This document shows, one piece after another, positions 5,543 to 34,718 of a stretch of 64,000 nt of DNA. The DNA comes from Crossiella sp. SN42. Lineage in GTDB: Bacteria > Actinomycetota > Actinomycetes > Mycobacteriales > Pseudonocardiaceae. A program made the translations under genes and the position numbers. Within the stretch, counting starts at the first letter, position 1, and each line of letters starts with the position of its first letter. A model generated the notes under the pieces. It was not told where the DNA came from, made no database searches, and saw only the letters and a list, made by a program, of their open reading frames with translations. The DNA lies in contig NZ_JAMHIV010000017.1 of the NCBI RefSeq assembly GCF_023897065.1, forward strand, positions 124,001 through 188,000. Reading direction: 5' to 3'.

Positions 5543-5794
5543 TCACAGGGAGGTCATCAGGCCTTCTACCCGGTCCAGCGCGCCGGTGACCAGCTCCACG
5601 GTGCGGCCGTGCCCCTGACCCGCGCCCAGCAGCTCCGGCGGGACCAGCGAGGACGAGTGGTGCTTGCCCGCTTTCGCCAGTGCGGCCAGGGATTCCCCGA
5701 TCAGTTCGTCGGCCTCGATCAGCACCTGATGTGCCTGGAGAAGCTGCTCGCGCACCGACGCCAGTGCGGCCGCGACCTCCGCGATGGACGACAC
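5543..5794 (-). CDS. Small helical protein of the FtsK-like operon (83 aa)
   Basis: 83 residues, mostly predicted helix: SSIAEVAAALASVREQLLQA then a second helix and a Gly/Ser-rich hinge (GKHHSSSLVPPELLGAGQGH) before a final helix. No WXG motif, signal peptide or membrane segment. The GTG start is 5 bp after the stop of the 86-residue gene and the stop is 30 bp before the ATPase gene, so it belongs to that operon. Size and helical-hairpin character recall WXG100-type partners of EccC-like motors, but the defining motif is absent, so this is only a structural analogy. Confidence 0.7.
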   Translation of the reverse strand: MSSIAEVAAALASVREQLLQAHQVLIEADELIGESLAALAKAGKHHSSSLVPPELLGAGQGHGRTVELVTGALDRVEGLMTSL

Positions 5795-22705: not shown

Positions 22706-24136
22706 TCAGCCGAAGTAACGACCCTGGGTCTGCACGTTCAGCTCGTCGAAGTGCTGGAGCTTGGCCCAGTCGGTGCGCCGGTCGTCGAGCCGGAGCACGT
22801 CGAAGCCCTTCTGGATGTCCGAGGAGTAGATGTAACCGTTGTACCAGTAGGCCGACCAGGAGCCCGCGGTCTTCAGCTCGGTGTCCGAGAACGGCCCGCG
22901 CTCCCAGAAAGCGATCTCCTTGGGCTTGCTGGAGTCGGTGAAGTCGAACACCGACACGCCGCCCTGGTACCAGGCCTGGACCATGATGTCCTTGCCGGGG
23001 ACCGGGATCAGCGAGCCGTTGTGCGCGACGCAGTTCTCGGTGTCCTTCTGCGGGCGCGGGATCTTGAAGTAGCTGCGGAAGACCAGCTTGCGCTTGTCGC
23101 CCTTGCCCACGATGTCGTAGATGCCGTTCGCGCCGCGCTTGTCGCCGATCTTGGCGTTGCAGGTCGCGCCGCCGCCACCGCCGAGCTCGTCGGTGAAGAT
23201 GACCTTGTCACCGCGGTTGTTGAAGGTCGCGGAGTGCCAGAACGCGAAGTTCACGTCATCGCGCACCCGCTCGATCACCTTCGGCTTCTCCCGGTTGGAG
23301 ATGTCGAAGAGGATGCCGTCACCCATGCACGCGCCCGCCGCCAGGTCGAGCTTGGGGTAGACGGTGATGTCGTGGCAGCCCGAGGTCGCGGACAGGTCCG
23401 GGTTGCTCGGGTTCTGCCCGGGGTTGCCGCCGTCCGGGAACAGCACCGGCGCGGAGATGACCTTGGCCGAGGCCGGGTCGCGCAGCGGCACCTTCACGAT
23501 GGAGATCTTGTCGTGCGGCGGCTGGCAGTCCGGGAAGGACGCCGACGGGGCGTAGGAGGAGCTGTACAGGTACACGTTCTTGTTGCCCTTTTCGGGCACC
23601 AGGGTGTGCGTGTGCGACCCGCAGTCGTTCTCCACCGAGGCGACGTACTTCGGGTTGCGGACATCGCTGATGTCGAAGATCTTCACGCCCTCCCAGGACT
23701 CCTTGACCGTGGCCGGCTGGCTCACGTTCTCGCAGGAGTCGTTGCTGCGGGAGGAGTCGGTGGACAGGAACAGCAGGTTCCCGTGCACCGAGATGTCGTT
23801 CTGCCCACCGGGGCAGAGCACCTGGGCGACGCGCTTCGGCTTCGCCGGATGGCGGATGTCGAAGATGTCGAAGCCGTTGTAGTTGCCCACGAAGGCGTAG
23901 TCGCCCTGGAAGGCCATGTCGGTGCCGAGCGCGTTCTCCGGCGCGAACGGGCCGGACTTGGGCAGGTTCGCGACCTGCCGCAGGTTCTTGCTGCTGACGA
24001 TCTGGTCAACGCCGGGAATGCCGTCGGCCGGTTCGGCGGCCACGGCAGGCGCGGCGGCGAACGTGGAGGCGGCGACAAGCGCGGCCCCGGACAGCACCAT
24101 CAAAACTCGGCGCGTTGTGCGTTGGGTAGACGCCAC
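22706..24136 (-). CDS. Secreted LVIVD-repeat beta-propeller protein
   Basis: About 476 residues with a signal peptide (~1-35). The body is made of repeated blades of LVIVD type, each with a D[IV]FDIS/R-xPAKPK-like core: FDIFDIRHPAKPKRVAQVL, VKIFDISDVRNPKYVASVE, GILFDISNREKPKVIERVR, VSVFDFTDSSKPKEIAFWE. These proteins are extracytoplasmic propellers common in actinobacteria; ligands are unknown. Nine or so Cys residues suggest disulfides. GTG at 24136 follows GGGAG; an ATG at 24151 is an alternative with a poorer site. Divergent from the DUF305 lipoprotein gene. Confidence 0.85.
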   Translation of the reverse strand: MASTQRTTRRVLMVLSGAALVAASTFAAAPAVAAEPADGIPGVDQIVSSKNLRQVANLPKSGPFAPENALGTDMAFQGDYAFVGNYNGFDIFDIRHPAKPKRVAQVLCPGGQNDISVHGNLLFLSTDSSRSNDSCENVSQPATVKESWEGVKIFDISDVRNPKYVASVENDCGSHTHTLVPEKGNKNVYLYSSSYAPSASFPDCQPPHDKISIVKVPLRDPASAKVISAPVLFPDGGNPGQNPSNPDLSATSGCHDITVYPKLDLAAGACMGDGILFDISNREKPKVIERVRDDVNFAFWHSATFNNRGDKVIFTDELGGGGGATCNAKIGDKRGANGIYDIVGKGDKRKLVFRSYFKIPRPQKDTENCVAHNGSLIPVPGKDIMVQAWYQGGVSVFDFTDSSKPKEIAFWERGPFSDTELKTAGSWSAYWYNGYIYSSDIQKGFDVLRLDDRRTDWAKLQHFDELNVQTQGRYFG

Positions 24137-24277
24137 CCTCAAAGCTCCCATCGCGTGACGGCTGGATCTGTGCAGTATCTCTGTCTGGTTTGGGTAAGGA
24201 AACAGCCTTTCGCCGTCGGCTGCACACAGTTTTTCCAGGTTCCCACCAGGCGGACATCCCAGGTAGCGTCGCCGCTC

Positions 24278-24919
24278 GTGAGCCGTCTGCCGCTGAAATC
24301 CGGGATCCTTGCCGCCTTCGCCGCCCTGGCGCTCACTGCCTGTACCGGCAACGGCACGCAGGGTGCGCCGCCGGAGGTCGCCGAGCAGGTGCCGGTGATC
24401 GCGCCGGGCAAGCCGGGCGAGCCCGCGAAGACCCTGCCCAGCATGCCGCCGATCGCCGAGCGGCCGCCCGGTGATGCTGATTTCACCTACGTGTCGATGA
24501 TGATTCCGCATCACCGGCAGGCGCTGGAGATGACCGCGCTGGCCGCCGACCGCGCCAAGCACCAGGACGTGCGCGGCCTGGCCGGCCGGATCGAGGGCGC
24601 GCAGGCCCCGGAGATCCAGGCCATGGAGGGTTACCTGAAGCGGCACAACAAGCCGGTGCCCAGCGCGCACGGCGGGCACTCCAGCAGCACCATGCCGGGT
24701 ATGGCCTCCTTCGCCGACATGGTGCGGCTCAAGGACGCCAGGGGCGAGGAGTTCGACCGGATGTTCGTGCGGCTGATGATCGCCCACCACGAGGGTGCGG
24801 TGAAGATGGCCAACGACGTGCTGGCCGCCGGGCACGACATCTTCGTGGAGGAGATGGCCCAGGACGTCATCGCCACCCAGACCGACGAGATCAAGCGGAT
24901 GCGCGAAATCAAGTTCTGA
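24278..24919 (+). CDS. DUF305 family lipoprotein
   Basis: 213 residues. The signal peptide ends in LTAC, a lipobox, near residue 20. After a Pro-rich linker come the two DUF305 ferritin-like helix motifs: YVSMMIPHHRQALEMTALA and FVRLMIAHHEGAVKMANDV. The paired HH residues are the likely metal ligands; copper-linked DUF305 proteins are known, but the role here is unproven. GTG at 24278 gives the clean lipoprotein signal. Divergent from the LVIVD gene; the shared 141-bp gap may hold promoters for both. Confidence 0.88.
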   Translation: MSRLPLKSGILAAFAALALTACTGNGTQGAPPEVAEQVPVIAPGKPGEPAKTLPSMPPIAERPPGDADFTYVSMMIPHHRQALEMTALAADRAKHQDVRGLAGRIEGAQAPEIQAMEGYLKRHNKPVPSAHGGHSSSTMPGMASFADMVRLKDARGEEFDRMFVRLMIAHHEGAVKMANDVLAAGHDIFVEEMAQDVIATQTDEIKRMREIKF

Positions 24920-25078: not shown

Positions 25079-28000
25079 GTGACCAACCCGAACACCCGCC
25101 GCTGGCGTGCGCCCGCCGCGGCCGTGCTGGCCGCAGCGCTGGGCACCGCCGCGTTAGGCCTGGCCGCACCGGCCGCCGCGGCACCGCAGCAGCCGCCCCA
25201 GGCGGACAAGCAACTGGACAAGCGTGACCGTGAGCTGCTGGCCGAGGCCGCGCGCGAGGGCAAGCAGCGCGTGACCCTGCTGGTGGCCGCGGGCAAGGGC
25301 CGCACCGACAAGGCCGTCGAGGAGCTCCGCTCGCTCGGCGGCGAGGTGGAGTCGACCGAGAAGTCGGTGGACTACGTCAAGGTGTCGGTGCCGAGGGAGA
25401 AGGCCGAGCAGGCCGCGAAGCTGAAGTCGGTGGACGCCATCGACATCGACGCGGTCATCCCGGTCGACGACCCGCGCCCGCAGCCCAACGGCGCCGTGCA
25501 GCCGTTGCCGCAGAAGGCGCCGGACGCCAAGACCCCTCGGGTCAACCCGTACCTGCCGACCGGTGACATCGGCGCCGCGCAGTTCGGGCAGACGCTGCCG
25601 TTCTGGGACGGCCGCGGCACCACCGTGGCGATCCTGGACTCCGGCGTCGACCTGGACCACCCGGCCCTGGCCACCACCAGCACCGGCGAGCGCAAGATCG
25701 TGGACTGGTACACCGCGAACTCGCCCACCTCCGGCGACGGCACCTGGGTCGCGATGACCAAGACCGGCCGCACCGGCAAGTTCACCGAGGGCGGCCGCGA
25801 GTGGACCGCGCCCGCCACCGGTGGCCCGTACTCCTTCGGCCTGTTCAAGGAGACCGCGCAGGACCTGGGCGCGGCGGGCAGCGAGATCGGCGGCGACGTC
25901 AACCGGGACGGCGACCGCGCCGACTCCTGGGGCGTGCTGCAGGACATCGCCACCAAGGAGGTCCGGGTCGACCTCAACGGCGACGGTGACTTCACCAACG
26001 ACAAGTCGATGATCGACTACAAGGTCAAGCAGGACGTCCAGCACTTCGGCGCGGACAAACCGGCCACCAAGGACGTGGTCGAGCGGATGGCCTTCGTGGT
26101 GCAGACCGACCGCTCCATCTACGACAACGGCGGCACCCCGTACGTCAACCTGGGCATGGCCTCGGGCTCGCACGGCTCGCACGTGGCGGGCATCGCGGCC
26201 GGTAACAAGCTCTTCGGCGGCAACATCGCCGGTGGCGCGCCGGGCGCGAAGCTGATCTCGATCAAGGCCTGCCTGTCCAGCCCCGGCTGCACCTCCAGCG
26301 GCCTGATCGACGGCGTGCTCTACGCCGCGCGCAACGGCGCGGACGTCATCAACATCTCCATCGGCGGGCTGCCCGGTCTCAACGACGGCAACAACGCCCG
26401 GGCCGCGCTCTACAACCGCACCATCGCCGAGTACAAGATGCAGATCTTCATCTCGGCGGGCAACAGCGGCGCCGGCGCGAACACCGTCGGCGACCCCTCG
26501 GTGGCCACCGACGCGGTGAGCGTGGGCTCCTCGATCACCGCCGAGACCTGGCTGAGCAACTACGGCTCGGAGGCCGCGGCCAAGGAGGGCCTGCACCCGT
26601 TCTCCTCGCGCGGTCCGGCCGAGGACGGCGGCTTCAAGCCGAACATCATCGCCCCCGGCTCGGCGATCTCCACCACGCTGCTCTGGCAGCCGCCCGGCCC
26701 GACCGCGGGCACCTTCACCCTGCCCGCCGGGTACTCGATGTTCAACGGCACCTCGATGGCCGCCCCGCAGGCCACCGGCGCGGCCGCGCTGCTGCTCAGC
26801 GCGTACAAGGCCACCCACGGCGGCCAGCGCCCCACCCCGGCGCAGCTGCGCACCGCGATCTACTCCAGCGCCAAGTTCCTGCCGAACCTGGGCGCCTACG
26901 AGCAGGGCGCGGGCAAGTTCGACGTGTGGGGCGCGTTCTTCGCCCTGCAGCGCGGCCCGGCCACCGACACCGTGCGCACCGAGGTCGAGGTGGACACCTC
27001 GCTGGAGGCCCAGCTGGCCAAGCCCGGTTTCGGCGTCGGCATCCACGACCGCGAGGGCGTGACCGTCGGCAAGGCCTACACCCGCACCTACACCCTGACC
27101 CGGACCTCCGGTGCGGCGGGCGACCGCCGGTTCTCGGTGGACTGGGTGGGCAACGACGGCACCTTCTCCTCGGCCCGCTCGGTGCAGCTGCCGCTGAACA
27201 CGCCGGTGAAGTTCGAGGTCAAGGTCAACCCGAAGACCGCGGGCGCGCACTCCGCGCTGTTGCGGCTGGACAACCCGGCCACGCCGGGCATCGACCACCA
27301 GGGCCTGGCCGCGGTCTTCGCCGCCCAGGAGTTCACCGCGGCCGCCGGCTACAAGGTGACCGCCTCCGGTGAGATCGGCCGCAACCAGGCCAAGTCGGTG
27401 TTCGTCCGGGTGCCGCAGGGCGCCAGCGCGCTCAAGATCGACCTGAACGCGGGCGGCCCGGCTGGCAAGGGCCAGGTGCGCTTCCTGCGCTTCGACCCGA
27501 CCGGGGTGCCGAAGGACGTCACCTCGACCACCAACTGCTACAACCCGGACGCGGGCGCGGGCTGCTCCGGCGGCACGCCGGCCAGCCGCACCATCACCAA
27601 CCCGCTGCCGGGCGTGTGGGAGATCATCATCGAGGCCCGCCGGACCTCGGACGTGAAGCTCGCCCCGTTCTCGGTCAGCGCCGAGGTGCTGGGCACCAAG
27701 ATCACCCCGAACCCGGACGTGATCCCGACCGCCGCGGTGGGCACCCCGGTGCAGCGCCAGTACACGGTGGCCAACTCGCTGGCCGGGTTCACCGGCAAGC
27801 TGGTCGGCGGCACCCTGTCCAGCGCCAAGACCGACCGGCCCAGCATCGCCAACGGGGCCGTGCAGCAGTACGAGGTCACCGTGCCGGCCGGTGCGAGCAG
27901 CTTCACCGCGACCATCGGCAGCACCGCCGACGCCGCGGCCGACCTGGACCTGGTGGTGCAGAACTGCACCAGCGGCAGCTGCGTGGACGCCGGCTCCAGC

Positions 28001-28327
28001 GCGGACGGCGACTCCGAGGAGTCGGTGACCATCGCCAACCCGGCCGCCGGCAAGTGGCGCGTGGTGGTCGACGGCTACTCGGTGCCCGCGGGCACCACCG
28101 CCTACGACTACCTGGACTCCTTCGTCTCGGCGGCGCTGGGCGGCATCGCGGTGACCGACACCGACGCCACCCGCGCCGCGGGGGCCACCTGGACCGCGCC
28201 GGCGAGCATCACCGTCGCCGGGCAGCCGGGGGAGGGCAGGCACCTGCGGGGCGACCTGCTGGTGCAGACCGCGGACAAGGTGACCGTCGGCCGTGGCGCC
28301 GTGCGCATCCAGGCCGTGACCGGCTGA
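25079..28327 (+). CDS. Giant secreted S8 (subtilisin-like) protease, paralogue 1
   Basis: 1082 residues. Signal peptide ~1-35; an I9-like propeptide at ~42-125 (QRVTLLVAAGKGRTDKAVEE ... VDYVKVSVPREKAEQAAKL); the S8 catalytic domain at ~165-625 with D187 (ILDSGVD), H365 (HGSHVAG) and S559 (NGTSMAAP); and three or more beta domains in the C-terminal ~450 residues, the last two like pre-peptidase C-terminal domains. A ~150-residue insertion between Asp and His contains Asp-rich GGDVNRDGDRADSWG and VDLNGDGDF, which look like EF-type calcium loops. GTG follows AGGAAGGG. Tandem to a close paralogue; degrades extracellular protein. Confidence 0.93.
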   Translation: MTNPNTRRWRAPAAAVLAAALGTAALGLAAPAAAAPQQPPQADKQLDKRDRELLAEAAREGKQRVTLLVAAGKGRTDKAVEELRSLGGEVESTEKSVDYVKVSVPREKAEQAAKLKSVDAIDIDAVIPVDDPRPQPNGAVQPLPQKAPDAKTPRVNPYLPTGDIGAAQFGQTLPFWDGRGTTVAILDSGVDLDHPALATTSTGERKIVDWYTANSPTSGDGTWVAMTKTGRTGKFTEGGREWTAPATGGPYSFGLFKETAQDLGAAGSEIGGDVNRDGDRADSWGVLQDIATKEVRVDLNGDGDFTNDKSMIDYKVKQDVQHFGADKPATKDVVERMAFVVQTDRSIYDNGGTPYVNLGMASGSHGSHVAGIAAGNKLFGGNIAGGAPGAKLISIKACLSSPGCTSSGLIDGVLYAARNGADVINISIGGLPGLNDGNNARAALYNRTIAEYKMQIFISAGNSGAGANTVGDPSVATDAVSVGSSITAETWLSNYGSEAAAKEGLHPFSSRGPAEDGGFKPNIIAPGSAISTTLLWQPPGPTAGTFTLPAGYSMFNGTSMAAPQATGAAALLLSAYKATHGGQRPTPAQLRTAIYSSAKFLPNLGAYEQGAGKFDVWGAFFALQRGPATDTVRTEVEVDTSLEAQLAKPGFGVGIHDREGVTVGKAYTRTYTLTRTSGAAGDRRFSVDWVGNDGTFSSARSVQLPLNTPVKFEVKVNPKTAGAHSALLRLDNPATPGIDHQGLAAVFAAQEFTAAAGYKVTASGEIGRNQAKSVFVRVPQGASALKIDLNAGGPAGKGQVRFLRFDPTGVPKDVTSTTNCYNPDAGAGCSGGTPASRTITNPLPGVWEIIIEARRTSDVKLAPFSVSAEVLGTKITPNPDVIPTAAVGTPVQRQYTVANSLAGFTGKLVGGTLSSAKTDRPSIANGAVQQYEVTVPAGASSFTATIGSTADAAADLDLVVQNCTSGSCVDAGSSADGDSEESVTIANPAAGKWRVVVDGYSVPAGTTAYDYLDSFVSAALGGIAVTDTDATRAAGATWTAPASITVAGQPGEGRHLRGDLLVQTADKVTVGRGAVRIQAVTG

Positions 28328-28343
28328 CCAACTGAATGATCGG

Positions 28344-28380
28344 ACGACCCCGCCTGGGCTGCACTCCCGGGCGGGGTCGT
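28344..28380 (+). terminator. Terminator hairpin between the tandem S8 proteases
   Basis: ACGACCCCGCC pairs exactly with GGCGGGGTCGT around a 15-nt loop containing GGGCTGCACTCCCGG. The same 15-nt core occurs in the hairpin after the second protease although the stems differ. Confidence 0.75.
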
Positions 28381-28425
28381 TCGTCTCGGAGCGCCGGATC
28401 TGTCCATTGTGGATACCGTGCCGGT

Positions 28426-31400
28426 GTGATCACACCGCCTCGCCTGGTGCTCCTGCTCGTCAGCGCGGTCCTGGCCGCGACCGGACTCACCGCGCTGCCC
28501 GCGGCCGCCGAGCCGCCGGGCCCGGCCAAACAGCTGGACAAGGCCGACCGCGGCCGGATCGCCGAGGCGCGCGGCGCCGGGCAGTCCAGGGTGACCCTGG
28601 TGGTCGCCGCCGAGCAGGGCCACGCGGCCGCGGCCGAGACCGAGCTGCGCGAGCTCGGCGGGGTGGTGCGCGCGGCCGAGCCCGCGGTGGGCTACCTCAA
28701 GGTCGAGCTGCCCGCCGAGCAGGCGGAACGGGCCGCGCGGCTGGCCTCAGTCAAGGCCGTGGACGTGGAGCACCTGGTGCGCCGGGAGGACCCGAGGCCG
28801 CAGGGCGCGGAGCAGCCGCTGCCGCAGCCGCCGCCCGGCCCGCTGACCCCGCGCGCCAACCCGTACCTGCCCACCAGGGACATCGGCGCGGCGGACTTCC
28901 CCGTCGACGGCCGGGGCGTGCTGGTGGCGATCCTGGACTCCGGCGTGGACCTGGACCACCCGGCGCTGGCCACCACCAGCACCGGCGAGCGCAAGATCGT
29001 GGACTGGCACAACGCGAACGCCCCCGGATCGGGTGATGGCGGCTGGGTCGAGATGACCACGAAGTTCCACAATGGACCCTTCCGCGAGCAGGACCGGGAC
29101 TGGGTGGCGCCCGCCGGTGGCGGCCCGTTCTCCTTCGGACTGCTCACCGAGGTCGCCGGGGACCTCGGCGCCCCGAAGAGCGAGGTCGGCGGCGACCTCA
29201 ACCGGGACGGCGACCGCGCCGACTCCTGGGGCGTGCTGCAGGACACCACGAGCAAACAGGTCCGGGTGGACCTCAACGGCGACCGCGACTTCACCAACGA
29301 CCGGCCGATGACCGACTACAAGACCGGCTTCGACGTCGGCCACTTCGGCGCGGACCGCCCGGACACCCCGGTGCTGGACCGGATCGCCTTCGTGGTGCAG
29401 ACCGACCGCTCCACCTACGACGGCACGGTGACGCCGTTCGTGAACATCGGGGTGGCAGGCGCTCTGCACGGTTCGCACGTGGCAGGCATCGCGGCCGGGA
29501 ACCAGCTCTTCGGCGGGGCGATGGCCGGTGCCGCGCCAGGCGCGAAGCTGATGTCGGTCAAGGCCTGCCTGGCCAGTAACGCCTGCACCAACAGCGGCCT
29601 GCTGGACGGGGTGCTCTACGCCGCGCGCAACGGCGCGGACATCGTCAACATCTCCATCGGCGGGCTGCCCGCGCTCAACGACGGCAACGACGCCACGGCC
29701 GCGCTCTACAACCGCACCATCGCCGAGTACAAGATGCAGCTCGTCATCTCGGCGGGCAACGACGGCGCGGGCGCGAACACCGTCGGCGAGCCGGGCGCGA
29801 CCGTGGACGCGGTGACCGTCGGCTCCTCGATCACCGCCGAGACCTGGCTGAGCAACTACGGTTCGGTGACCCCGGTCCGGCAGGGCCTGCACTCCTACTC
29901 CTCGCGCGGACCGGCCGAGAACGGCGGCTTCAAGCCGAACATCATCGCCCCCGGCGCGGCGATATCCACGGTGCCGCAATGGCAGCAGCCCGCGCCGGTC
30001 CCTGGCACCTATCCGCTGCCGGTCGGGTACGCGATGCTCAACGGCACCTCGATGGCCGCCCCGCAGGCCACCGGCGGCGCGGCCCTGCTGATCGGCGCGC
30101 ACAAGGCGTTGCACGGTGGCGCCCGGCCCGATCCGGCCGCGCTGCGCAACGCGATCTACTCCACCGCGAAGTTCCTGCCCAACCTCGGCGCGTACGAGCA
30201 GGGCGCCGGTCTGCTGGACGTGCCGGCCGCTTTCCTTGCCCTGCAACGAGGTCCGGCCCCGGAGACGATCAAGGCCGAGGTGCCGGTGCGGACCGTCCTC
30301 TCCGGCGAGCTGGCCACACCCCATGTGGGCATTGGCATCCACGACCGCGAGGGCGTCTCCGTCGGCACGGCCTACACCCGCACCTACACGCTGACCCGCA
30401 CCACCGGCACGGCCAACCGCGCCTGGCACCGGGTGGAATGGGTCGGTGACGACGGCACGTTCAGCTCGGCCAGTGGCATCCGGCTGCCGCTGAACGAGCC
30501 GGTGAAGCTGGACGTGACGATCAACCCGCGCACCGCGGGCGCGCATTCGGCCTTGCTGCGCATCGACAACCCGGCCACCCCCGGCATCGACCTGGTCACC
30601 CTCAACACGGTGTTCGCGCCGCTGGAACTGAGCTCTGCCAACGGTTTCACCGCGGGCGGCAGCGGCGAGGTCGGCCGCAACGGCTCCCGCTCCACCTTCG
30701 TCAGGGTGCCCGAGGGCGCCACCGGGCTGAAGATCGACCTGGCCGGTGGCGGCGCGCCCGGCAAGGGGCAGCTGCGCTTCCGGCCGTTCACCCCGTCCGG
30801 TCTGCCGTACGAGGAGGCCGGCTCCGGGCTCTGCTACCAGCCCGACGCCGGTGGCGGCTGCCCCACCGGCTCACCGGCCAGTCGCACCGTGCTCTCGCCG
30901 ATGCCCGGCGTCTGGGAGATCGTGGTGGAAGCCCGGCGCACCTCCGACGCGCTGACCGCGCCGTTCACCGTGACCGCGGCCGCGCTGGCGATCAAGGTCC
31001 AGCCGGATCCGGACGTGCTGACCTCGGTGACCCGCGGCGAACCGCAGGCCAGGGAGTACCAGCTGCACAGCACGATGGCGCCGTTCACCGGGCGGCTGAC
31101 CGGCGGGCCGATGGGCAGCGCCCGCCCGCTGCGCCCTGTCATCGCCACCGGAGCCCACCAGCGCCACGAGCTCACCGTGCCCGAGGGCGCCACCTCGCTG
31201 ACCGTGCGCACCGGCAACCCGGCCGACTCCGGCGCGGACCTGGACCTGGTGCTCTTCGACTGCTCCAGCGGCGACTGCGTGCAGGCCGGGGTCAGCGCCG
31301 GAGCCAGCGCGGCGGAGGAGGTGACCATCGCCAACCCCAGGGCCGGGCGCTGGCGGGCCGTGGTCGACGGCTTCGCGATTCCCAGCGGCCGCACGGAATA

Positions 31401-31623
31401 CGACTACCTGGACTTCTACGCCGCGCCCTCGCTGGGCGTGGTCGAGGTGACCGATGAGGACCGGCTGCGGGAGAGCGGCAGCCGGTGGACGGCGCCGGGG
31501 CAGGTGATCGCGCGGACCGGCCTCACCGAGGGCAGGACGCTGCGCGGGGAGCTGCGGGTGCGCACCACCGCCGAGGGCGTGGCCGCGGTCAGCGGTGTGG
31601 AGGTGCGCGCCGTCAGCGGCTGA
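28426..31623 (+). CDS. Giant secreted S8 (subtilisin-like) protease, paralogue 2
   Basis: 1065 residues, collinear with the upstream protease over its whole length: signal peptide ~1-27, I9-like propeptide (~35-120), catalytic triad D171, H348, S542, the same Asp-rich insertion (GGDLNRDGDRADSWG, VDLNGDRDF) and the same C-terminal beta domains. It is clearly a tandem duplicate, and conservation is strongest in the catalytic domain. The start is GTG at 28426, chosen because it opens directly into the signal peptide. Its 3' end is 9 bp from the convergent propeptide-like lipoprotein gene. Confidence 0.93.
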   Translation: MITPPRLVLLLVSAVLAATGLTALPAAAEPPGPAKQLDKADRGRIAEARGAGQSRVTLVVAAEQGHAAAAETELRELGGVVRAAEPAVGYLKVELPAEQAERAARLASVKAVDVEHLVRREDPRPQGAEQPLPQPPPGPLTPRANPYLPTRDIGAADFPVDGRGVLVAILDSGVDLDHPALATTSTGERKIVDWHNANAPGSGDGGWVEMTTKFHNGPFREQDRDWVAPAGGGPFSFGLLTEVAGDLGAPKSEVGGDLNRDGDRADSWGVLQDTTSKQVRVDLNGDRDFTNDRPMTDYKTGFDVGHFGADRPDTPVLDRIAFVVQTDRSTYDGTVTPFVNIGVAGALHGSHVAGIAAGNQLFGGAMAGAAPGAKLMSVKACLASNACTNSGLLDGVLYAARNGADIVNISIGGLPALNDGNDATAALYNRTIAEYKMQLVISAGNDGAGANTVGEPGATVDAVTVGSSITAETWLSNYGSVTPVRQGLHSYSSRGPAENGGFKPNIIAPGAAISTVPQWQQPAPVPGTYPLPVGYAMLNGTSMAAPQATGGAALLIGAHKALHGGARPDPAALRNAIYSTAKFLPNLGAYEQGAGLLDVPAAFLALQRGPAPETIKAEVPVRTVLSGELATPHVGIGIHDREGVSVGTAYTRTYTLTRTTGTANRAWHRVEWVGDDGTFSSASGIRLPLNEPVKLDVTINPRTAGAHSALLRIDNPATPGIDLVTLNTVFAPLELSSANGFTAGGSGEVGRNGSRSTFVRVPEGATGLKIDLAGGGAPGKGQLRFRPFTPSGLPYEEAGSGLCYQPDAGGGCPTGSPASRTVLSPMPGVWEIVVEARRTSDALTAPFTVTAAALAIKVQPDPDVLTSVTRGEPQAREYQLHSTMAPFTGRLTGGPMGSARPLRPVIATGAHQRHELTVPEGATSLTVRTGNPADSGADLDLVLFDCSSGDCVQAGVSAGASAAEEVTIANPRAGRWRAVVDGFAIPSGRTEYDYLDFYAAPSLGVVEVTDEDRLRESGSRWTAPGQVIARTGLTEGRTLRGELRVRTTAEGVAAVSGVEVRAVSG

Positions 31624-31632
31624 ACCGGCTGA

Positions 31633-32088
31633 TCACGACGGCCCCACACCGGGCTGCACTCCCGGTGTGGGGTCGTCTCGCGGGATCAGCCGATCCAGTT
31701 CCACCGAGGTGACGGAGGGCAGCGCGGCGGCTCGTTCCACGGCGTCGAGGGGCACATCGACCCGCAGATATCCGACCGCACCGTCACTGACCTCCACAGT
31801 CGCTCCGAGTTCGCGTAGCCCCTTGGTGACCTTGTCGGTCGCCCCGGGTTCGGTGAACACCATGAGCAGCATGGTCTTCCGGCCCTCCTGACGGGCCTTG
31901 GCCACCTGCTGGCGTTGCGCCTCATCGAGCTTGCGCACTGGCGACTCGCTACTGACCTGCGTGCTGGGCGAACCACTTGGCGTGGCCGAGGGCGGGGAAC
32001 CGGCTTGGGGCCGCGCGCCGCATGAGCCGAGAACCAGGGCGGCCGTGACCGCGAACACCCCGGCGCCGACCCGGCAGAGCGAACCCAT
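31633..32088 (-). CDS. Lipoprotein resembling the S8 protease propeptide (I9-like inhibitor candidate)
   Basis: 151 residues. Lipoprotein signal ending LGSC at Cys ~23, a Ser/Pro linker, then a domain that follows the propeptides of both neighbouring proteases: KLDEAQRQQVAKARQEGRKT (compare KQLDKRDREL..EAAREGKQRV), LRELGATVEVSDGAVGYLRV, ERAAALPSVTSVELDRLIPR and a DDPxP ending. It stops where the catalytic domain would begin, so it is a free-standing propeptide. Known subtilisin propeptides fold and inhibit their protease. A membrane-anchored inhibitor or folding chaperone for the two proteases is a strong inference from sequence and position. ATG follows GAGGAG. Confidence 0.82.
   Translation of the reverse strand: MGSLCRVGAGVFAVTAALVLGSCGARPQAGSPPSATPSGSPSTQVSSESPVRKLDEAQRQQVAKARQEGRKTMLLMVFTEPGATDKVTKGLRELGATVEVSDGAVGYLRVDVPLDAVERAAALPSVTSVELDRLIPRDDPTPGVQPGVGPS
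31642..31672. terminator. Hairpin at the convergent end of protease 2 and the propeptide-like gene
   Basis: CCCCACACCGGG pairs exactly with CCCGGTGTGGGG (12 bp, 7-nt loop). It lies within the last codons of the minus-strand lipoprotein gene and 19 bp past the protease stop, so it can terminate the protease transcript while being coding on the other strand. Confidence 0.65.
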
Positions 32089-32181: not shown

Positions 32182-32918
32182 ATGCATACTCAGTCGATCT
32201 CGTTCGGGCAGCTCGCTTCGGCGGCGTGGCCGGGCCTGCACGTCCGTGAGGTGGACGGCTGGCTGCTGCGCAGCGCGGGCGGCGTGACCAACCGCGCCAA
32301 CTCGGTGCTGGCCGAGGGCGAACCGGCCGATGTCCAGGCCGCGCTGACCGAGGTCGAACGGCACTACGCCCGCCTCGGCCAGCCCAGCGTGTTCCAGGTC
32401 GGCCCGGACAGCAGGCCGACCAACCTGGACGAGCTGCTCGCCGCCCGCGGCTACCGGGTGGTCACCCCGGTCTACGGCCAGACCGCGGCCATCCCCGAGG
32501 CGCTGGCCGCCCTCGGCGAGCAGACCCGGCACCCGGTGGTCACCGAGCAGCCCACCGAGTCCTGGCTGGACCTGTACTGGGCGCAGGACGGCCGGAAGGA
32601 CCCGGCGAGCCGGTTCATCACCCAGCAGATCCTGGCCGCGGTGCCGGGCGGGTACGCCGAACTGGACGGCCAGGCCCTGGTCCGGGGCGCGCTGGTGCGG
32701 GACTGGGTGGGCATCTTCGGCATGTGGGTCGATCCGGCGGCCCGCGGCAAGGGCCTGGCCCGCGCGGTGCTCGCCGGCCTGCTGCGCTGGGCAGCGGACC
32801 GGGGAGCGACCCACGCGTTCCTCCAGGTGATGGTGGACAACACCGTCGCCCAGCGGCTGTACGCCAGCGCCGGGTTCAGCACGGTCAGCAGCTACCACTA
32901 CCGCGTGCTCGACCGCCC

Positions 32919-32922
<4 letters not shown>
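32182..32922 (+). CDS. GNAT family N-acetyltransferase
   Basis: 246 residues. The C-terminal ~100 residues form the GNAT fold: VGIFGMWVDPAARGKGLARAVLAGLLRWA with the acetyl-CoA-binding [QR]xxGx[GA] loop (ARGKGLA), then AFLQVMVDNTVAQRLYASAGF. The N-terminal half (WLLRSAGGVTNRANSVL) is typical of the tandem-GNAT RimI-like group. The acceptor is unknown. The stop shares a CTAG with the convergent chitinase gene. Start ATG at 32182; no strong ribosome site, so the transcript may be leaderless. Confidence 0.88.

Positions 32923-34718
<1,796 letters not shown>

Follow-up and report, generated by a model that had tools for sequence, protein, structure and literature searches.

A lipoprotein related to subtilase propeptides, encoded beside tandem S8 proteases in Crossiella: a putative membrane-anchored protease inhibitor

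A Tandem of S8 Proteases and a Convergent Lipoprotein

The window analysed here is a 64,000-nucleotide stretch of the genome of Crossiella sp. SN42, a member of the Pseudonocardiaceae (contig NZ_JAMHIV010000017.1, positions 124,001 to 188,000). Coordinates are positions in this window unless they carry a locus handle (L). The segment from 25079 to 32088 encodes two large S8 proteases in tandem and, on the opposite strand, a small lipoprotein resembling the proteases' propeptides. The genes and their domains are as follows.

25079–28327, plus strand: protease 1, an S8 subtilase of 1082 residues with a GTG start; signal-peptide-like N-terminus, propeptide, S8 domain and C-terminal PPC domain
25199–25480, plus strand: I9-like propeptide domain of protease 1, ending in DDPRP; assigned by homology to the lipoprotein and by the predicted model
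25610–26911, plus strand: S8 catalytic domain of protease 1 (PF00082, 161.7 bits)
28426–31623, plus strand: protease 2, the tandem paralogue, 1065 residues, GTG start, signal-peptide-like N-terminus; S8 domain at 140.1 bits, PPC domain just below cut-off
28513–28800, plus strand: I9-like propeptide domain of protease 2, ending in EDPRP; assigned by homology to the lipoprotein
31633–32088, minus strand: stand-alone propeptide-like lipoprotein, 151 residues, ATG start, convergent with the proteases
32020–32088, minus strand: signal peptide and lipobox of the lipoprotein (LGSC, Cys23), assigned by pattern rules
31663–31938, minus strand: I9-like domain of the lipoprotein (residues 51–142), with the acidic pair E130/D132 (presumed helix-cap equivalents), I135 in a P4-like position and the end DPTP

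Both S8 scores are far above the Pfam cut-off, both proteases show the Asp, His and Ser motifs, and the two are 68% identical over propeptide and catalytic domain. The initial annotation, made from the DNA sequence alone, described tandem S8 proteases followed by a convergent 151-residue lipoprotein with a lipobox and no catalytic domain. Coordinates, Pfam and sequence confirm that description: the lipoprotein is encoded by a gene of its own and lacks a catalytic domain. The tandem pair is present in all five Crossiella-group genomes, and the other tabulated loci have a single protease each. The ratio of nonsynonymous to synonymous substitution rates (dN/dS) is 0.45–0.50 for protease 2, looser than the 0.21–0.33 of protease 1 (two comparisons each). 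The Crossiella genome of the window holds 40 S8 domain matches and 5 SSI matches, which points to a heavily proteolytic lifestyle.

Relationship of the Lipoprotein to the Propeptides

Within the 9.72 Mb genome that encodes it, the best matches of the lipoprotein other than itself are the propeptides of protease 1 (E 2.6e-17, 38% identity) and protease 2 (E 2.8e-17, 40%), after which the next match drops to E 0.008. Genome matches of E ~3e-17 rule out a chance resemblance. No Pfam or NCBIfam family scores above cut-off for the lipoprotein, and searches of Protein Data Bank (PDB) sequences with the lipoprotein or its profile returned no subtilisin propeptide. The Pfam I9 model (PF05922) matches neither protease; its 12 matches in the window genome all lie within frames of at least 396 residues, so it finds no other stand-alone I9 gene there. 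Five further stand-alone frames are also unmatched by PF05922, and two of these five have sub-cut-off matches to the fervidolysin prodomain model (E 0.09 and 0.067). The I9 assignment of the lipoprotein is thus based on its predicted fold and its homology to the propeptides, not on the Pfam I9 model. Compared with four other Crossiella-group genomes, the lipoprotein gene has a dN/dS of 0.16–0.44, and we count this apparent purifying selection in favour of a tethered inhibitor.

The AlphaFold2 model of the lipoprotein, built from the query and five relatives, has a helix at residues 56–67 followed by strand, helix, strand, strand, helix and strand up to residue 131 (H-E-H-E-E-H-E). The core blocks have a predicted local distance difference test score (pLDDT) of 78–90; the whole-chain mean is a low 66.9 because the signal peptide, linker and tail are poorly defined. 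Residues 1–84 of the protease 1 model follow the same order of elements, in blocks of pLDDT up to 92. In the model of the protease 1 propeptide plus catalytic domain (four sequences), the mean pLDDT is 33.5 and the catalytic part is unusable. When the lipoprotein model was compared with the PDB by Foldseek, ranks 2–10 were all subtilisin propeptides or prosubtilisins (root-mean-square deviation 1.5–3.1 Å over 62–66 columns, probability 1.00, E 0.01–0.02). An I9 propeptide topology, which structure prediction of the lipoprotein alone was expected to show, is therefore a good reading of the model, on weak E-values.

Conserved Residues

In subtilisin BPN', Glu69 and Asp71 are described as helix-capping residues (PMC6993865). 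From the pattern V-E/D-x-D we infer the equivalent positions in the lipoprotein family. Residues were tabulated for 58 lipoproteins and 84 protease propeptides, with positions counted back from the domain end. Both presumed cap positions are D or E in all lipoproteins (58/58 and 58/58) and in 82/84 and 81/84 proteases, two or three of the 84 protease rows being apparently out of register. At the P4-like position, 57 of the 58 lipoproteins and 83 of the 84 proteases have L, I or V; the remaining lipoprotein has A. A lipobox pattern lies upstream of the domain in 58/58 lipoproteins, or 57/58 under a stricter signal-peptide rule (pattern rules, no trained predictor).

The two groups differ between cap and domain end. 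The lipoproteins mostly have E-P at −10/−9, N at −6 and a variable residue at −5, whereas the proteases mostly have G-L at −10/−9, L at −6 and D at −5. The lipoprotein domain ends in P-x-P in 58/58 (P at −3 and −1). After the xPxP, the Crossiella lipoproteins carry 9–10 extra residues that are absent from the 53 tabulated copies of other genera. The lipoprotein of genome G219, which lies outside the table, deviates by eye, with Q for the first acid and the end GPPS.

Distribution and Gene Arrangement

A profile of 19 lipoproteins was run against 390 genomes of the family. It matches 175 of them, 157 by hand count at E 1e-10 or better (a strong match), with an open frame displayed for many, not all, of the 157. 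The family-wide searches scored the best 9, 10 or 13 candidates per genome, and absences are therefore soft. Many internal-stop flags in one family search seem to reflect alignments running past the true stop, and none occur in the matches listed by the 19-lipoprotein profile.

By reading of loci, the lipoprotein form is present in 59 of the 390 genomes, in seven genera (handles g: g1 5/5, g8 25/25, g25 23/24, g42 3/3, g43 1/1, g23 1/7, g22 1/8). A search for the trio in other genomes, as the initial annotation proposed, thus finds it in 5/5 Crossiella-group genomes and the lipoprotein in 54 further family genomes, in 53 of them beside the protease. A Crossiella-only oddity is thereby ruled out. 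The orthologous protease, of about 1100 residues, lies beside the lipoprotein on one contig in 58 of the 59 genomes; in G236 the two genes are near the ends of two separate contigs. The arrangement is convergent in 54 genomes, with gaps of 7 to 2684 bases between the open frames. In three (G061, G070, G072) the lipoprotein is upstream of the protease on the same strand, and in one (G219) it is downstream on the same strand. There (L177:2189–5908) the lipoprotein gene, of 109 residues from a likely ATG at 5582, lies about 80 bases past the protease stop, and co-transcription is therefore possible at that locus. Within a few kilobases and at a blastp threshold of E 1e-10, the flanks of 22 loci (Crossiella, G226 and the g8/g25/g42/g43 group) have no genes in common beyond the protease and the lipoprotein.

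About 98 of the 157 strong-match genomes lack the lipoprotein form, four of these having a signal-less form described below. Among 20 hand-picked (non-random) protease loci without a lipoprotein match, neither profile finds a stand-alone form in 17, and the other three have the signal-less form; no stand-alone form was found at the protease loci of G010 and G216 either. The exception in g25 is G229, where a decayed lipoprotein remnant (L178:2496–2822) adjoins an uninterrupted protease frame of 1129 residues. In assemblies G238 and G223 (L066:5079–5855 and L136:2855–4306) the protease frame itself is interrupted, by sequencing error or real loss.

Of 394 genomes sampled from the class, 63 match. 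At E <1e-11 all matches are in frames of at least 892 residues, except the window's own lipoprotein and G657. Three short-frame matches (G657, G617, G758) were read, about 15 other weak ones (E 1e-4 to 1e-3) being left out. G657 (L181:3746–5147) holds, in broken frames, stretches from the propeptide and the C-terminal region of such a protease, the catalytic part being unmatched, and the short-frame match of G617 gives nothing with the domain profile. On this sample, and as far as sequence matches indicate, all occurrences of the lipoprotein form recorded here are in genomes of the Pseudonocardiaceae.

Origin of the Lipoprotein

The stand-alone forms and the protease propeptides are nearly cleanly split in a tree of 146 domains (91 columns), which requires two changes between the classes against a mean of 47 after shuffling. 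In a tree of 54 domains, a clade with support 99/99 unites 25 of the 28 protease rows, the two Crossiella propeptides among them, and the Crossiella lipoprotein lies outside it. A recent copy of a neighbouring propeptide is disfavoured by this placement, with no formal rejection in the approximately unbiased (AU) test: constraining such a copy from either neighbour lowers the log-likelihood by 19.9 and 16.0 (p 0.11 and 0.14). The lipoprotein appears to be an old paralogue of the proteases' propeptide. The initial annotation had called it a free-standing copy of that propeptide; the homology to both propeptides (E ~3e-17) bears out the relationship, and the word copy is overstated, since the lipoprotein lies outside the clade of the Crossiella propeptides.

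Both trees place the Crossiella lipoproteins away from the main lipoprotein group, and there may thus have been more than one origin. Neither a single origin of the lipoproteins (p 0.24) nor a single origin of all stand-alone forms in the set (p 0.27) is rejected by the AU test, and several independent origins of the lipoproteins are possible.

A Signal-Less Form and Other Stand-Alone Frames

A second form of stand-alone protein is propeptide-like, has 67 or 85 residues and no signal peptide, and is convergent with the protease. It occurs in both genomes of g32 and in G159 and G168 of g11 (L073:9483–9737, L134:6245–6499, L120:3626–3826 and L121:5940–6140). The first cap residue is Q in all four. 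These signal-less forms are possibly cytoplasmic counterparts of the lipoprotein. A family-wide search with the four found matches in 196 of 390 genomes; among the matches listed, the fifth best (E 7e-17) is in a protease-sized frame, and no further one has the strength of the four. Weaker second or third matches appear in many genomes, including g11 genomes without a strong protease match.

G758, which belongs to another family, has a free frame of about 82 residues that resembles a propeptide. It starts where the gene of a different S8 protease stops (L182:4108–5756, minus strand); that protease, a 468-residue frame, shows no obvious signal peptide by eye. Stand-alone I9-like proteins may be more widely spread.

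A Proposed Membrane-Anchored Inhibitor

We suggest that the lipoprotein is a membrane-anchored, stand-alone I9-type relative of the propeptide and acts in trans as an inhibitor of the neighbouring secreted subtilases. This proposal, which we regard as probable, is based on the homology and predicted fold, the linkage to the protease gene, the cap and P4 residues, the lipobox and the purifying selection. Subtilases are zymogens that mature by loss of the propeptide, and the two proteases would be exported and mature in this way. The lipoprotein would be exported separately and lipidated at Cys23, and a linker of about 27 residues would hold its I9-like domain on the outside of the membrane, as its sequence suggests. 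The β-sheet face of this domain would then dock on two surface helices of the mature protease, with the conserved E130 and D132 capping these helices and the C-terminal tail entering the active-site cleft with I135 at P4. A protease active at the membrane would be blocked and one that had diffused away would be free, so that the producer's own surface proteins would have a local shield.

Several observations weigh against this proposal. The lipoprotein is unmatched by PF05922; rank 1 of the Foldseek search is NapD (E 0.005), which is not a propeptide, and nothing in the PDB scores below E 0.001. The tail residues 131–151, presumed to be the part that enters the cleft, are modelled at a pLDDT of 49–55. 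The xPxP end is unusual and proline-rich, and replacing Leu by Pro at the C-terminal end of the Tk-subtilisin propeptide reportedly reduces its binding (Uehara 2013, cited in PMC10580911). The lipoprotein is convergent with the protease in 54/59 genomes, so that the pair does not form a simple transcription unit. All 59 lipoprotein genomes have one or more SSI-type inhibitor genes (PF00720), so a subtilisin inhibitor is already present. Finally, C-terminal truncation of SUB1-ProM, the Plasmodium protein discussed below, is reported to leave parasite growth in vitro unaffected (PMC6993865).

The initial annotation had left open whether the lipoprotein would be a tethered inhibitor or a chaperone. 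As a chaperone acting in trans, it would aid folding of the exported protease at the membrane, foldase-like, beside the cis propeptide. Propeptides of mesophilic subtilases are described as both chaperones and inhibitors (PMC10580911), and a membrane tether would suit a foldase coupled to export; yet the proteases already have full propeptides, about 98 of the 157 strong-match genomes lack the lipoprotein form, and G229 retains its uninterrupted protease frame next to a decayed lipoprotein. Because the protease is so often kept without the lipoprotein, it probably does not need the lipoprotein to fold. The chaperone reading is weakened accordingly and we consider it quite unlikely, so that only the inhibitor half of the earlier suggestion is favoured. 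A surface dock, in which the lipoprotein would mainly hold the mature protease at the cell surface and tethering would outweigh inhibition, has in its favour that the lipid anchor, the linker and the conserved cap residues could serve as a tether, and that the lipoprotein tail is unlike those of the proteases (mostly N at −6 and variable at −5, versus mostly L and D). Nothing observed requires localisation without inhibition, however, and we think such a role unlikely.

The same inhibitor might have another target, either foreign S8 proteases or further ones made by the cell itself, its position next to the protease being merely inherited. The window genome's 40 S8 matches would offer such targets, and some propeptides are reported to inhibit heterologous subtilisins (PMC6993865), but the orthologous protease adjoins the lipoprotein in 58/59 genomes despite distinct flanks and three arrangements, which makes this alternative very unlikely. 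That the lipoprotein is a relic, a decaying and functionless fragment of a former protease gene, is suggested by the one decayed copy in G229; the dN/dS of 0.16–0.44 and the retention of lipobox and cap residues in 58/58 speak against it, and we consider it extremely improbable. The favoured reading thus remains a tethered inhibitor of the neighbouring subtilases. The wider picture, which we hold about as readily as we doubt it, is a family of membrane-tethered, stand-alone subtilisin propeptides, derived from an old paralogue, found in three gene arrangements and accompanied by a separate signal-less form, and serving as an anchored brake that spares the producer's surface.

Other Features of the Locus

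Two predicted RNA hairpins follow the protease genes:

28338–28385, plus strand: hairpin downstream of protease 1 that lacks a T run; −43.4 kcal/mol, z −5.0
31637–31677, strand not assigned: hairpin past the protease 2 stop, within the coding end of the lipoprotein; −53.1 kcal/mol, z −7.1

The second hairpin encodes the C-terminal tail GVQPGVGPS that is found only in the Crossiella lipoproteins. The hairpins have a 15-mer in common. Since this 15-mer occurs exactly twice in the 9.72 Mb genome, the protease tandem seems to have arisen by local duplication. In a scan for promoters and terminators, sigma-70 promoters were absent (0.1 expected), a single terminator-like site was placed at 30213 (2.7 expected), and neither hairpin was called.

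Upstream of protease 1, at 22706–24919, a secreted LVIVD-repeat-like protein and a DUF305-like frame can be recognized by eye. On the other side, at 32182–34718, a GNAT-like gene is divergent from the lipoprotein, and after it comes a chitinase-like gene of the minus strand (also by eye).

Relation to Known Systems and Significance

SSI (I16, PF00720) is an actinomycete subtilisin inhibitor, but it belongs to an unrelated family and is encoded by separate genes in all 59 genomes; the lipoprotein has no match to PF00720 at E up to 5. SSI is secreted and targets SAM-P45, a Streptomyces protease of about 1100 residues. The idea that the lipoprotein is a substitute for SSI is rejected because SSI genes are present in all 59 genomes.

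The closest tested precedent for the proposed tethered inhibitor, by analogy, is SUB1-ProM of Plasmodium. This stand-alone protein resembles a propeptide, is encoded next to subtilase genes and inhibits SUB1 with an apparent Ki of 5.67 nM, its binding being argued from helix-cap and P4 features (PMC6993865). SUB1-ProM and the lipoprotein are alike in their stand-alone propeptide fold, signal peptide, position beside subtilase genes, helix-cap acid and hydrophobic P4 residue (PMC6993865). They differ in that SUB1-ProM is eukaryotic, is expressed in the parasitophorous vacuole and has measured inhibition, whereas the lipoprotein is bacterial, lipid-anchored as judged by its signal, and known here from sequence and model. 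Other stand-alone I9 members are POIA1, the yeast peptidase B inhibitor, Arabidopsis SPI-1 and Toxoplasma MIC5; all are eukaryotic, and the section of the source that describes them mentions neither a neighbouring protease gene nor a lipid anchor (PMC6993865).

Bacterial pairs are described for another class of proteases (PMC2873492, PMC3462683). Spi of Streptococcus pyogenes is a propeptide analogue encoded next to its protease, SpeB, and inhibits it; unlike the S8 partners here, SpeB is a C10 cysteine protease, and Spi is co-transcribed with it and thought to act in the cytoplasm. The Bti and Bfi proteins of Bacteroides are small predicted inhibitors beside C10 proteases, several of them predicted lipoproteins, but they are staphostatin-like rather than propeptide-like, and are co-transcribed with cysteine proteases (PMC2873492, PMC3462683). 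A literature search, with most subscription papers outside its reach, found no bacterial S8/I9 pair and no stand-alone I9 lipoprotein. Stand-alone I9 inhibitors characterised in eukaryotes and analogous bacterial pairs for other protease classes are known already; the present case differs from them in its lipid anchor, in its setting with bacterial S8 proteases and in a pairing that is conserved and mostly convergent.

If the proposal is right, a module that normally serves folding and inhibition only for a time would have become, in bacteria, a lasting protease brake held by a lipid anchor; the free propeptide-like inhibitors of some eukaryotes are a comparable step. Evolutionary tests could draw on the natural loss, on the rearranged loci and on the form without a signal peptide. 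The lipoproteins might also be a source of cognate inhibitors for actinomycete subtilases, and the system would be a test case for how producers of secreted proteases protect their own surface.

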